Source of the DNA: a virus
DNA length: 36,935 nucleotides
Strand: one strand, 5' to 3'
IMG/VR virus record: IMGVR_UViG_3300036768_000595
Coordinates: 1 to 36,935 of that record
The notes under the pieces were generated by a model that worked only from the letters and a program-made list of their open reading frames with translations, was not told where the DNA came from and ran no database searches. Shown here piece by piece: positions 8,975-36,935 of this stretch; within the stretch, counting starts at the first letter, position 1, and each line of letters starts with the position of its first letter. The position numbers and the translations under genes are program-made.

Positions 8975-9589
8975 ATGAGCATACAACTTCAAGAATGGAA
9001 AGCGTTGCTTAACCGCGACCCTGACCCTAAAGAAATTGAACCAACACCGGACGGTCGTGCTAAGACATTGCCTATATCATTCGTTGAAATGACGTTAGAT
9101 GAACTGTTCGAGGATTGGGGCACAAAAAATTTCACCACAAAAGTAGTAGGAAATGAAGTTGTGGGAGAGTTGGAGTTATGGTGTATTAATCCTATAACAA
9201 AAAGAACGATAACCAGGGTGGGTGCGGCAGCCATTATCATACAGGTTGATAAGGCTCCGGAAGGGATTCAAGGGGTTGACCGCAACCGGTGGGCGTTAAA
9301 TCCTGACAACAAAAAGCCCAACGCACTCGACCTCGGTTATCCTAAACTTAAAGCGGAATGCGTGAAGAACGCAGCGCAGTCGCTCGGTAAGATTTTCGGC
9401 AGGGATTTAAACAGAAAGAAAAGCGACACATACAAACCACCTTTAAAGGCCCTTTCACCGGAGGCGTTTAATGCCTTGAAGAAGCGAATAGAAGATGGTG
9501 ATACGCTTGCGCTTGAGCGCGCAATGCTGTACTTTGTTTTTACCGAAGAACAACTTAATGAGTTGAAACCTAAGCAGTTAGCGCAATGA
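8975..9589 (+). CDS. Putative Rad52-like single-strand annealing protein
   Basis: 204 residues. The core (about 35-150) has the pattern of Rad52/Sak-like phage annealing proteins: a beta-meander with WCINPITKRTITRVGAAA, then a helix with GYPKLKAECVKNAAQSLGKIFGRDL. In the family this helix lines the DNA-binding groove. Such proteins anneal complementary single strands during phage recombination, usually with a 5'-3' exonuclease; a YqaJ-type exonuclease is four genes on. The last 45 residues (SPEAFNALKKRI onwards) form a separate helical tail duplicated at 10187-10300. The family call rests on motif memory; a RecT-type protein is the alternative. Confidence 0.6.
   Translation: MSIQLQEWKALLNRDPDPKEIEPTPDGRAKTLPISFVEMTLDELFEDWGTKNFTTKVVGNEVVGELELWCINPITKRTITRVGAAAIIIQVDKAPEGIQGVDRNRWALNPDNKKPNALDLGYPKLKAECVKNAAQSLGKIFGRDLNRKKSDTYKPPLKALSPEAFNALKKRIEDGDTLALERAMLYFVFTEEQLNELKPKQLAQ
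9455..9568 (+). repeat. Direct repeat copy 1, tail of the annealing-protein gene
   Basis: 114 bp encoding the C-terminal helical tail of the annealing protein. It matches 10187-10300 at 111 of 114 positions without indels (offset 732). Two of the three differences are silent; the third is Asp to Gly. Confidence 0.95.
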
Positions 9590-10173: not shown

Positions 10174-10342
10174 AAAAAAGTCTTTGTCACCGGAGGCGTT
10201 TAATGCCTTGAAGAAGCGAATAGAAGGTGGTGATACGCTTGCGCTTGAGCGTGCAATGCTGTACTTTGTTTTTACCGAAGAACAACTTAATGAATTGAAA
10301 AATGTATTATTAATAAGTTGCATATACCATGCGTTGAAATGA
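10163..10342 (+). CDS. Duplicated annealing-protein tail as a 59-aa stand-alone ORF
   Basis: 59 residues from ATG 10163 to TGA 10340-10342. Residues 8-46 copy the C-terminal tail of the annealing protein (SPEAFNALKKRIE onwards) with one substitution. The copy is joined in frame to a new start (MDALKKSL) and followed by a new 13-residue end. Its start region repeats the start of the exonuclease gene (ATGGATGCGTT). It is either a functional peptide using the same partner-binding tail, or debris of a recent duplication. The open frame and mainly silent changes slightly favour retention. Confidence 0.5.
   Translation: MDALKKSLSPEAFNALKKRIEGGDTLALERAMLYFVFTEEQLNELKNVLLISCIYHALK
10187..10300 (+). 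repeat. Direct repeat copy 2
   Basis: The second copy of the 114-bp annealing-gene tail, 732 bp downstream of the first (111/114 identical). It lies inside the segment bounded by the 15-bp direct repeats at 10159-10173 and 10348-10362. Confidence 0.95.
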
Positions 10343-11014: not shown

Positions 11015-11259
11015 AGAAAAAACCTGCTGAAATGTTCCCGGATGCAACAAAGGAGTACAGGTTGCGGAGGATGTTGAAGAAAATGAATGAAAACAATTCA
11101 GAAAAGCAAGCTATACTGTTTTTTGTTGCTGTGCTCATCACGGTTGGATTCATCTTGCTATGCCTCTACTTGTGGAGTTTGGCAGAGTTTGACAGCAACC
11201 CGATAACTGGGTTATTCATTATTGCGCTTGTTTCGTTGTTTTTTGTCTTGAAAAAATAA
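11011..11259 (+). CDS. Small membrane protein, two transmembrane segments
   Basis: 82 residues: a basic N-terminal helix (about 1-32, KEYRLRRMLKKMNENN), then two hydrophobic segments at about 33-55 (AILFFVAVLITVGFILLCLY) and 66-80 (ITGLFIIALVSLFFVL), ending KK. Translation is coupled to the exonuclease by ATGA. A holin-like topology is possible, but the position among recombination and replication genes argues against lysis. Superinfection exclusion or an early membrane function is a speculative alternative. Confidence 0.6.
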   Translation: MKKKPAEMFPDATKEYRLRRMLKKMNENNSEKQAILFFVAVLITVGFILLCLYLWSLAEFDSNPITGLFIIALVSLFFVLKK

Positions 11260-11263
11260 CATC

Positions 11264-12037
11264 ATGGCTAAAGACCCTGCTTTTTTATTCTATCCCGGTG
11301 ATTGGCTTCAGGGCACATTGGGTATGACATTCGAAGAAAAGGGTGCATACATGGAGCTACTCATACTCCAGTTTAATTGCGGGAAATTCACCAGAAAACA
11401 GGCCGAAAATGTTTTGAGCATATGCTCAGCATATGTATTCGAAAATGTGCTGAAAAAGTTTGAAACCGATGGCGTGTATTATTGGAAAACCAGGCTGGCA
11501 TTGGAAATGAAAAAGCGGGAAAACTACACGGAAAGCCGCAGAAAAAACGCAAAATCAAAGAAATCAGCCAAAAGTTCTGAACCATATGCTCAAGCATATG
11601 CTGGTACATATGCTAACCATATGCATAAGCATATGGAAAATGAAAATGTAAATGAAAATGAAAATGAAAATAATAATGAAAATGAGCCTGATTTTTTTAA
11701 ACCTGATATAGAAGGCGATTCGCTTGTTTTCCCTCTTGACACGCAGGCTGTACGTGAACTGTGGGCATCGTGGAAAAGATACAGGTGGCACAAGCATAAT
11801 CAACGCTACGCAATGATGGGTGAACAGGCTGACTTGAAAAGGTTGGAAGGGATGTCGTTTTCGCAGATTAAGCAGACCATCCTTGCGGCAATTGCCGGCA
11901 ACTGGAAAAATCTTTACCCGGAAAACGTAAACGCAAATGGAAAACCAAAAACAACTACAAAGGAACAACAGTCAGCAGCAACAGCTGACTACTTGCGAAA
12001 GCATTACAGCCAAAAACTTGGCAAGAAGGGATTTTGA
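11264..12037 (+). CDS. Replication initiator, DUF1376/YdaU-like N-terminal domain
   Basis: 257 residues. The N-terminus has the DUF1376 signature: PAFLFYPGDWLQGTLGMTFEEKGAYMELLILQ. It is followed by helices of a winged-helix-like initiator domain (to about 90). Residues 92-145 are a linker rich in Lys/Ser/Tyr/Ala, then Asn/Glu repeats (ENENENNNENE). The C-terminal domain (about 155-257, ELWASWKRYRWHKHN, LKRLEGMSFSQIKQTILAA) resembles initiator-to-loader contact regions. Proteins of this type act as phage replisome organisers at the origin. The linker DNA contains phased CATATG repeats and an AT-rich hexamer tract, as in lambda O. Confidence 0.8.
   Translation: MAKDPAFLFYPGDWLQGTLGMTFEEKGAYMELLILQFNCGKFTRKQAENVLSICSAYVFENVLKKFETDGVYYWKTRLALEMKKRENYTESRRKNAKSKKSAKSSEPYAQAYAGTYANHMHKHMENENVNENENENNNENEPDFFKPDIEGDSLVFPLDTQAVRELWASWKRYRWHKHNQRYAMMGEQADLKRLEGMSFSQIKQTILAAIAGNWKNLYPENVNANGKPKTTTKEQQSAATADYLRKHYSQKLGKKGF
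11419..11435. repeat. Two CATATG sites, outlier pair of the origin cluster
   Basis: CATATG at 11419-11424 and 11430-11435, 11 bp apart, inside AGCATATGCTCAGCATATG. They encode part of ICSAYVF in the initiator, and the two sites lie in different reading phases. They may be an auxiliary initiator-binding pair 150 bp before the main cluster. Confidence 0.55.
11583..11635. repeat. Five helically phased CATATG repeats, candidate origin iterons
   Basis: CATATG begins at 11583, 11595, 11607, 11618 and 11630, with steps of 12, 12, 11 and 12 bp, about one helical turn. The hexamers occur in different codon phases (second position for the first three, first position for the last two), so the repeat is kept at DNA level and not because of the protein. 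Spacer bases are partly shared (GCTCAAG, GCTGGTA, GCTAAC). All sites would face one side of the helix, as expected for binding of an oligomeric initiator. Function is inferred by analogy with the lambda O gene. Confidence 0.7.
11636..11686. repeat. AT-rich tandem hexamer tract, candidate unwinding element
   Basis: About eight near-perfect AATGAA-type hexamers, directly following the last CATATG. It encodes the Asn/Glu repeat of the initiator linker. It is strongly A-rich on one strand and lacks internal GC-rich words, so it would melt easily. Its place next to the iteron-like cluster matches the arrangement of lambda ori. Confidence 0.6.
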
Positions 12038-12647
12038 GGCCATAGAAAAATCAGTGCCTTCCGTTGTATCAGCCATTCTTGACAGGCCTAACATAGCGAT
12101 GTTGACCAATGCACTTGGAGACAGTACGCTTATTGAAATTTTTTTAAGCCGTCAGCTGCAACGTCTTGCAGACAGCGTGAACATTGACGCACGTTTGAAC
12201 CTTCAGCCTCATCAGATACCGGCCATCGCGGAAGAGTTAGTGAAAAAATATCCGGTTGAAACGCTTGAGGATTTTGTGTTGTGTTTCAAACGCGGAGCTT
12301 TTGGGTACTACGGTTCGATATACCGGATTGATGCAGCTGTATTGTGTGAGTGGATGGCTGCTTACTTGGAAGAAAAATATGCGCTTGTTGAAGCTGAACA
12401 CACGCGGAGGACGCAAGAAGCAAACAGTGTGGAAATAAACTACGCTGAGTACATCAAACGGATGGAGCGTGAGGATAGCCAACCGAAAGAGCGTGTACTA
12501 AGTGCTGATGAAAATGCGTATCAACGTTGGAAGCTCGAAAGGAAAAAGATGTTGAAAAAGTTTGTTGTGAATGGTGTGGAGGTGGAGGCGTTTGACGAAA
12601 AACAAGCGGAAGAAATTTATCACAAAATATATGGAACGGATAAATAG
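11937..12647 (+). CDS. Putative DUF6633-like replication protein (helicase-loader candidate)
   Basis: 236 residues if translation starts at ATG 11937, which overlaps the initiator gene by 101 bp. The recognisable domain begins only at about residue 39 (SVPSVVSAILDRPNIAMLTNALG), and the next ATG is at about residue 54, inside that domain. The real start is therefore 11937 or an upstream-of-domain TTG/GTG. Core features are IEIFLSRQLQRLADSVN, AEELVKKYPVETLEDFVLCFKRGAFGYYGSIYRIDAAVL and a charged helical C-terminus. This layout resembles DUF6633 proteins of Bacteroidota phages. A loader or replisome role is inferred from its place after the initiator. Confidence 0.62.
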   Translation: MENQKQLQRNNSQQQQLTTCESITAKNLARRDFEAIEKSVPSVVSAILDRPNIAMLTNALGDSTLIEIFLSRQLQRLADSVNIDARLNLQPHQIPAIAEELVKKYPVETLEDFVLCFKRGAFGYYGSIYRIDAAVLCEWMAAYLEEKYALVEAEHTRRTQEANSVEINYAEYIKRMEREDSQPKERVLSADENAYQRWKLERKKMLKKFVVNGVEVEAFDEKQAEEIYHKIYGTDK

Positions 12648-34842: not shown

Positions 34843-35137
34843 TACGAATAGTTTTGTTTTCAAGGCGACAAGCGACACGTTATCGTTTGAGTTTAAGCCT
34901 TTTGTGTATGCAGAAAAGTTTGAATTTTCGCCATTTTCGCATGAAAAGGAGCTTATGTTTAATGAATTTGTAAACGTTTCAGCGATACGTTTGTGCTCCT
35001 ACCTACTTGTTGCGGCACTAACGTTTGACAATTACGTGAGTGAACTTGCAATAAAAACTTGTTTCTTGCTTGAAGAACTTGTAAAGTATTATCCTCCTCA
35101 ATGGTTTGCAACATTTAATCCTAATGGTTTTAATTAA
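34829..35137 (+). CDS. Small virion-region protein, complete copy
   Basis: 102 residues; residues 53-102 are also present, 5'-truncated, at bases 1-155. The N-terminal half has Phe-rich strands (FVFKATSDTLSFEFKPFVYAEKFEFSPF). The C-terminal half has helices (LCSYLLVAALTFDNY, FLLEELVKYYPPQWF). Not recognised. It precedes the 548-residue fibre gene by 12 bp. Confidence 0.65.
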   Translation: MCPIDTNSFVFKATSDTLSFEFKPFVYAEKFEFSPFSHEKELMFNEFVNVSAIRLCSYLLVAALTFDNYVSELAIKTCFLLEELVKYYPPQWFATFNPNGFN

Positions 35138-35149
35138 TTAATCAATACT

Positions 35150-36796
35150 ATGCCGATAGCATCAGACTTTTCAATCGACAGGACTACAAAGAACATACGC
35201 CACACATCAGGAACGAGTACGTACCGTGTAATAGAGTTGCACAGGTGGCTTCAAGACGTTGCTGACGATGCTTCCTATGTTGGTGATGATGAACTGGACA
35301 TCACCGACCCGACACCATCGGAGCGGAGCACGGATAATATAATTACCCTAACTAACGGATACAACATTGACGATGATGCAGCTCGGTATTTCTACGATGG
35401 TTCGATAATTCAGAACGGTGGCAACACCATCTATGACGGCCTTGTTGTACTTGGGGCATCCGGTATGAGGCTTGAAATTATTCAGAACGGTGCGCTTGTG
35501 AGTCCGAATTTCTGGACTACAGGAATAAATGCTGACCCTGCAAACGGTATCTCGCACAGGTTTCTTATCAAGGTACGAAATGCCGGTGCGGACATAGACG
35601 GCAGAAGGCTTATTGGTATTACACGTGAGTTTAATTTCAGCTATTCCGAATTTAAGATAAACGGAACATCACGGGGCAACAACGTGCTTGCCATGAACTA
35701 TGTAAGCGACCTAAACAACCAGACGCCAGCAGCAACAGTTGCAACGTGGACGGATATTACCAACACAACGGTAGGGTACAACGGCATAGATGTTAACAAC
35801 GATGGAACAGATGAGTTCTTCTATTCGGAATGGAACCGGTCAACACGCTCGATAAATGATTTGTATGAGCGAATGAAATACCTAACACGCAGGGGTGAAA
35901 CTGCGTTGTTTTACGGAATACAGGGCCAGTTATTCAGGGGCATAACGCATGAGATTGTCGTTGACAATCCATCGGGGACTTTCAATCAAGTTGAACCTGT
36001 GTCGTGGGCAACTGGTACCGGACAGATGCTCGCCATTAACAGCGTTACCGCACCAACTAAGATGTGGATACAGTTGTTAACAGGTGTTGCTCCAATTGAT
36101 AACCAGGTTATTACTGGCAACACGTCATCGGCAACGTGTCAAGTGAACGTTACAGTTACTGAGAGAGCTATATCAACTCCATTCTGCGGTTTGTCAACAG
36201 GTTCATCTTTAATCGGTGCTTACGGTTTTGGCGTTGAGGCATTAGACCTTTCTGCATCGGATAAGGTGTTCGACCTCGACAATGTTCAGTATTCACCGCC
36301 AAACTTCCAAGTAGGTACTGTCAATGGACTTGTACCTGGTGAGGACTATGTTTTAGTTACCAACAACGATGGTGGCAATATTGACTACGACCAGTTCACG
36401 CTTAACGGAGCATTGACAGGAGTTTCTGTTACTGCTGTTGTTATCAACGGGTCAATACCAGCAGATACACCAAACACGGGTACTATACGGATACGCAGAG
36501 CAAATGGTGTATATACAAGACATACATACACATCATGGAGTGGTTCAACGTTTACGATACCGCCTACTAATTTTTCAACAAACAACGCACCAAACGGCAC
36601 GAATGTTTTTATCAGTTACATAGATAAATTGGCATCGTCAACTTCTGAATCGTTCACCGCAGTGTTCACAACGCCACGCAACATGTTTATACGTGTTCGT
36701 GACGGTGGTTCAACACCTATAAAGCCGTTCGACACCACGGCAACATTCGGTAGTGGAGGGTTCAGCGTAACAGTGTCGAGGATTTCTGATTCTTAA
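35150..36796 (+). CDS. Large virion (tail tip/fibre) protein, variant B
   Basis: The same 548-residue protein as at 168-1814, with about ten substitutions scattered through the chain (for example A114, T122, N202, Q290, A338, P379). There are no indels or stops. Most DNA changes are silent, so both versions appear functional and under purifying selection. On the circular unit this is the same locus as variant A, seen from a second strain in the population. Confidence 0.8.
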   Translation: MPIASDFSIDRTTKNIRHTSGTSTYRVIELHRWLQDVADDASYVGDDELDITDPTPSERSTDNIITLTNGYNIDDDAARYFYDGSIIQNGGNTIYDGLVVLGASGMRLEIIQNGALVSPNFWTTGINADPANGISHRFLIKVRNAGADIDGRRLIGITREFNFSYSEFKINGTSRGNNVLAMNYVSDLNNQTPAATVATWTDITNTTVGYNGIDVNNDGTDEFFYSEWNRSTRSINDLYERMKYLTRRGETALFYGIQGQLFRGITHEIVVDNPSGTFNQVEPVSWATGTGQMLAINSVTAPTKMWIQLLTGVAPIDNQVITGNTSSATCQVNVTVTERAISTPFCGLSTGSSLIGAYGFGVEALDLSASDKVFDLDNVQYSPPNFQVGTVNGLVPGEDYVLVTNNDGGNIDYDQFTLNGALTGVSVTAVVINGSIPADTPNTGTIRIRRANGVYTRHTYTSWSGSTFTIPPTNFSTNNAPNGTNVFISYIDKLASSTSESFTAVFTTPRNMFIRVRDGGSTPIKPFDTTATFGSGGFSVTVSRISDS

Positions 36797-36799
36797 TAT

Positions 36800-36935
36800 A
36801 TGCCTGCGATACGCGACAGTTCTTTTGCATTTGAAACACTCACGACAGATGCAGGTATAACTATACCTGTGCCAACAAATAGTGCGAATGACTTATTGAT
36901 TGCATTCGTGATGGGCGATACAGGTACGCCAACGT
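36800..36935 (+). CDS. Start of the large beta-helix fibre gene, 3'-truncated copy
   Basis: The first 45 codons of the protein encoded at 1818-4190, identical at the residue level and cut by the end of the window. Only the base at 36808 differs, silently. Confidence 0.8.
   Translation, partial: MPAIRDSSFAFETLTTDAGITIPVPTNSANDLLIAFVMGDTGTPT

Follow-up and report, generated by a model that had tools for sequence, protein, structure and literature searches.

A probable replication origin of short CATATG iterons inside the gene of a DUF1376-like phage protein

Described origins inside initiator genes and the DUF1376-like locus

Origins located inside initiator genes are already known. For lambda O and the O protein of Stx phages, the origin lies in the middle of the gene, its repeats are bound by dimers, an A/T-rich unwinding tract is found alongside, and a loader-like gene comes next (PMC5043065, PMC7466680). 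The replisome organiser gp38 of SPP1 binds direct repeats in its own gene 38 (oriL), where an A/T-rich DNA unwinding element (DUE) is also found (PMC6316719), and the lactococcal organisers ORF13 of TP901-1 and Rep2009 of Tuc2009 bind direct repeats within their own genes (PMC8965321). For the RepA_N plasmid pSK41, the Rep boxes occupy the centre of rep, between the parts coding for the winged-helix N-terminal domain and the C-terminal domain, and the protein sequence of the Rep-box region is a dispensable linker; in the hybrid pPR9, the N-terminal domain and the origin were exchanged and the C-terminal domain was kept (PMC5703833). The Rac prophage of E. coli has an active origin, oriJ (PMC3945230).

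The DNA analysed here, referred to as the window, is IMGVR_UViG_3300036768_000595 at its full length (36,935 nt, positions 1 to 36,935). It belongs to a tailed phage with terminase, portal, and tape-measure genes, and the named relatives of the portal are mainly Flavobacterium and Polaribacter phages. The original prediction placed a lambda-like origin within the plus-strand gene at 11264..12037 (774 bp, 257 aa), whose product consists of a DUF1376-like N-terminal domain, a low-complexity linker, and a C-terminal domain. The parallel with lambda stood at the level of layout, since repeats and an A/T tract inside an initiator gene would work alike in both, but homology was not supported, as Pfam and PHROGs gave DUF1376 and phrog_9327/phrog_3992 ('primosomal protein') only. 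The window shares with lambda a putative origin within the initiator gene, repeats, an A/T tract, and then a gene that is a candidate loader. The lambda iterons, however, are inverted repeats of about 19 bp (18-19 bp), four to six in one cluster, whereas those of the window have 6-bp palindromic cores at 11-12 bp, form two clusters, and are associated with a different domain family. Accordingly, neither the similarity to O (Pfam, PHROGs) nor the 18-19 bp iterons that define the lambda O family are found in the window gene. What the gene does contain is seven CATATG repeats within the initiator coding sequence, with selection at the DNA level, and an A/T-rich element next to them.

SPP1, TP901-1, and Tuc2009 are likened to the window by architecture. 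The exchange in pPR9 is of the same kind as the swap with a sister phage described below, but pSK41 differs in being a plasmid of Firmicutes whose C-terminal domain binds DnaG primase; no relation in sequence was detected, Pfam found no RepA_N match in the window protein, and the structure 4pta was a non-significant fold match only. By analogy, the window system appears to work like the origins of lambda, SPP1, TP901-1/Tuc2009, and pSK41, and homology to any of them is not claimed. A further likeness is offered by ydaU of the Rac prophage, which codes for a DUF1376 protein (E = 2.7e-26). In the ydaU-ydaV locus of E. coli K-12 (L543, 3620-5230), repeats lie within ydaU between the domain and the C-terminus, and the AAA+ gene ydaV follows; the differences are a GTTCAA-type iteron and a weaker A/T tract (37% GC). 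No link of the family to origins was found in the literature on DUF1376 or YdaU, in which subscription journals were scarcely covered.

The protein, its iterons, and the adjoining A/T-rich tract

The DUF1376 (PF07120) match of the window protein covers residues 9-79 with E = 1.7e-6 and 28.7 bits against a curated Pfam cut-off of 30.1, and the match of a relative (L003) lies above the cut-off at 36.5 bits. Residues 1-101 (11264..11566, plus strand) form a predicted DNA-binding domain, for which AlphaFold2 gave helices and a small beta wing with a pLDDT of 91.5. Foldseek with the whole protein and with the N-terminal domain returned no significant match (best E = 0.19); the non-significant matches were mostly winged-helix proteins, including the 'MDR initiator' 4pta, with transcription regulators of the HxlR, MarR, and SmtB types dominating and AspA also present. 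A sequence search of solved structures found no match. The C-terminal domain (coded by 11740..11940, plus strand) is common to L001 and L003 despite their other N-terminal domains or repeats, with 95% identity to L001, and identity across the whole protein is 37-38% to L002, L003, and L005; this domain may contact the helicase or its loader. In INPHARED, the window protein had no relatives; MT837034, the sole DUF1376-domain match to close relatives, carries GGTAATACC/GGTATTACC repeats and lacks CATATG. No relatives of another family member (L277) were found in PLSDB.

Five CATATG palindromes had been predicted in a late cluster, and all are exact, at 11583..11588, 11595..11600, 11607..11612, 11618..11623, and 11630..11635, the last of which directly abuts the GAAAAT tract. 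Two further sites are likewise exact and form an early cluster at 11419..11424 (context GAGCATATGCTC) and 11430..11435; the former occurs at the same site and in the same phase (offset 155) in L081, L082, and L084. The predicted one-turn spacing was regular in the late cluster (12, 12, 11, and 12 bp), but 11-12 bp slightly exceeds one turn of B-DNA, so that each site is turned a little around the helix relative to the one before. As had also been claimed, the word occurs in all three codon phases (offsets 155, 166, 319, 331, 343, 354, and 366 in phases 2, 1, 1, 1, 1, 0, and 0), and protein constraint does not explain it: with the protein held fixed, 1.8 copies were expected from the codon usage of the phage and 2.6 from a synonymous shuffle within the gene, compared with the seven observed (p = 5e-5 in each case; about 1 in 20,000 trials reached at least 7). 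Seven of the ten CATATG sites of the window fall in this gene, which makes up 2.1% of it (P = 2e-10). An enrichment of CATATG across the window was considered and rejected, as the count of 10 equals the shuffled mean (9.99) and the clustering alone is unusual. Apart from runs of a single base and GAAAAT in its shifted registers, no other word reaches five copies within 60 bp.

The hexamer tract predicted beside the last CATATG is present, with its end at 11685 instead of 11686. This candidate DNA unwinding element (11636..11685, 50 bp) contains 8.3 copies of GAAAAT (TRF) and codes for ENENVNENENENNNEN. Its GC content of 17.6% is among the lowest 0.5% of 51-bp windows. Across relatives, the Asn codon in the tract was AAT in 100 of 100 cases versus 185 of 306 (60%) elsewhere, and the Glu codon was GAA in 70 of 71 versus 324 of 416 (78%); by this codon choice, the tract is evidently under synonymous selection for A/T. 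The CATATG-GAAAAT junction (or GAAGAT/GGAAAT) is kept in most divergent relatives, and in A/T-rich phages the tract translates as an alternating E-x pattern. GC-richer relatives (L220, L251, L167, L177, and L262) have phase-2 CATATG arrays (DGICDGIC), after which a pyrimidine-rich SMSMSYSPPPPPP tract takes the place of GAAAAT.

The initiator gene is overlapped by a gene at 11937..12647 (plus strand, 236 aa, phrog_35728), which stands in a P-like position and is a candidate helicase loader. The overlapping position of the next gene recurs in many relatives (phrog_35728/phrog_26016), and some have a DnaB-like helicase or primase-helicase gene nearby instead. No helicase, primase, or polymerase genes were recognised among the window proteins scanned. 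A switch in GC skew, which had been suggested as a check, does not occur at 11.6 kb, and skew proved uninformative as an origin marker; almost all of the genes point the same way, and a switch would likewise be masked by replication that is unidirectional or recombination-dependent.

Several other features were observed in the window. Its two ends (1-1953 and 34983-36935) repeat each other in direct orientation, with 95.75% identity across 1953 bp and an ORF of 548 aa in each copy; either a circular contig was over-closed, with variants joined, or the duplication is genuine. A 114-bp repeat (9455-9568 and 10187-10300, 97% identical) corresponds to the 3' end of the ORF at 8975-9589, and its second copy sits in the gap ahead of a YqaJ-type exonuclease gene. 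The C-terminal part of the product of 15720-16358 matches N6_N4 DNA methylase (E = 1e-14).

Recurrence in relatives and exchange of domain and iterons as a block

A search with the whole protein gave 80 viral loci, nearly all of which had CATATG near offsets 120-170 and 280-370, the later group standing just ahead of an E-x-E-x tract. Because this query contained the HMHKHM peptide, the first 50 residues alone served as the query of a second search, in which at least two CATATG were found in 19 of 23 clusters (75% identity), or 20 of 24 including the window. According to the original prediction, the word should be concentrated in the gene and its phasing retained in relatives. Both were observed: in relatives, the density of CATATG was 6.9 per kb within initiator genes and 0.12 per kb outside them, and nearly all spacings within clusters were 11 bp (32 times) or 12 bp (39 times; 71 pairs), with few doubled steps (22-24 bp). 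The 11-bp steps in many genes rotate the word through the frames, giving xIC, xY[DEA], and HM in turn, and the early/late layout is constant while the encoded residues vary (HMTTHM versus SICSAYV). For 28 divergent genes, a set partly recruited by the DNA pattern and compared with a null that ignores relatedness, phases 1 and 2 contained 28 and 22 CATATG versus 10.0 ± 2.3 and 3.6 ± 1.6 expected, and 65 were in frame versus 53 in the null. The out-of-frame phases of a protein-recruited set contained 13 and 4 versus 4.4 and 0.8 expected under a null that likewise ignores relatedness. Furthermore, the bases flanking CATATG were complementary in 52% of cases, where 24% was expected, and they were alike within one phage, as would be expected of dimer sites with phage-specific preferences.

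The pattern was also recovered from DNA alone. A scan of IMG/VR for three CATATG at 11-12 bp found at least 118 loci, and 85 of the 118 listed have the array within a DUF1376-like ORF. For GTATAC, scanned likewise as the control, at least 102 loci were found, with 0 of the 102 listed in such ORFs. When genome contigs were scanned for 11-bp triplets, the array was in a DUF1376-like gene at 5 of the 119 loci listed, and the remaining loci listed were mostly a different interspersed repeat of Rhodobacterales; all of these frequencies hold among the matches listed and are not population estimates. Several Rhodobacterales (L279-L358, e.g. L281, L302, and L313) carry many CATATG-N5-CATATG-N5-CATATG arrays outside DUF1376-like genes, and these are a separate repeat family. 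CATATG arrays recur in phages of Bacteroidota, Bacillota, and a Saccharibacteria bin, the host labels being those of the assembled genome bins. The word is not universal in DUF1376 genes, as L085, L089, L093, L116, L540, and ydaU have none or other repeats; CATATG is one among several iteron types of DUF1376 proteins. The same layout was seen with another domain in Psychrobacter phage vB_PmaS_Y8A (L541), where the gene at 669-1478, for an HTH_36/DnaD_N-like protein, contains GTGACA repeats, encodes an EPINEPINEPI tract, and adjoins a gene annotated as replication protein P.

Comparison with the sister phage L001, which has at least 90% DNA identity to the window over long stretches on both sides, revealed an exchanged block at 11260..11630 (plus strand) that contains the N-terminal domain and all seven iterons. 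Nucleotide homology breaks off at 11259, five bases ahead of the start codon, and restarts at 11631, within the last CATATG and at the edge of the GAAAAT tract. The block of L001 codes for an unrelated N-terminal domain and has TTTGCT/AGCAAA repeats at matching positions, both early and late, after which GAATAT/GAAAAT hexamers come. The L001-type domain was found at 40 viral loci; among the 39 genes examined, 33 had at least four TTTGCT/AGCAAA repeats and 2 had at least two CATATG, and TTTGCT-type repeats occurred in 1 of the 24 DUF1376 clusters. The swap and this association of repeat with domain therefore show that the N-terminal domain travels with its own repeat, and the C-terminal domain is common to different repeat types. 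This linkage is the strongest evidence for the N-terminal domain as the reader of the repeats.

Alternative readings and the proposed origin

The array could instead be an operator, through which the DUF1376 protein or another regulator controls transcription or translation of the replication operon, with the A/T tract a mere acidic linker. Palindromic, regularly spaced sites are typical of operators too, the weak fold matches are mostly transcription regulators, and autoregulation would be compatible with origin function. However, the array lies about 320-370 bp into the gene, away from a promoter, and an operator would not need the adjoining tract, which is under synonymous selection. The combination of repeats and tract is, moreover, the proven origin architecture of lambda O (PMC5043065, PMC7466680) and SPP1 gene 38 (PMC6316719), and we consider an operator improbable.

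Lower still is the probability that HMxxHM and ENENEN are functional peptide repeats (a linker, or a metal or helicase contact) merely encoded by the DNA repeats. The sites are in frame as His-Met in many relatives, and the tract gives alternating E-x in A/T-rich phages, but the in-frame sites are just modestly above the codon null, and one DNA word in three phases gives unrelated residues (xIC, [TSP]Y[EAD], and HM) at equivalent positions; the codon nulls are exceeded, and there is hardly any synonymous variation in the tract. We give equally little credence to a partition (centromere-like) or packaging site for another protein. Although winged-helix proteins bind phased palindromes in centromeres, and AspA, a centromere-binding protein, was among the weak fold matches, the window proteins scanned included no recognised member of the ParA/ParB family, the L001 swap moves the repeats together with the N-terminal domain of the initiator, and the A/T tract would be left unexplained.

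The segment is very probably a phage replication origin inside the gene of its own activator protein, a reading based on what the sequences display: selection acts on the iterons and the tract, the geometry is fixed, the design recurs in divergent phages, and domain and iterons are exchanged as a block. The N-terminal DUF1376-like domain, probably dimeric, would bind the CATATG palindromes within its own gene, and the two clusters (two early and five late sites, 11-12 bp apart) would assemble into a nucleoprotein complex. This complex may strain and melt the adjoining GAAAAT tract, the presumed DNA unwinding element, after which the C-terminal domain and the product of the overlapping next gene would load the host replicative helicase. 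Four features appear to be new: the family of the initiator, palindromic iterons that are very short and set at single-turn spacing, their recurrence across phyla, and the cassette exchange.

On balance, we favour the view that DUF1376-like proteins make up a large class of phage initiators that has gone undescribed, and that their origins can be exchanged as cassettes, each an N-terminal domain with its cognate iterons. The CATATG core would be preserved in phages from several bacterial phyla, with the flanks giving phage-specific (incompatibility) specificity, and HMxxHM, ENENEN, YEYEYE, and IDIDID in 'primosomal' proteins would be translated origins. A function is thereby offered for the domain DUF1376, including that of ydaU of E. 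coli K-12, which is a ready laboratory test case for both the origin hypothesis and the location of oriJ, and the cassettes exchanged in nature allow initiator-origin specificity to be tested directly. Origins may then be located by searching initiator genes for repeats that shift phase, and puzzling low-complexity peptides would be explained as translated origin DNA.
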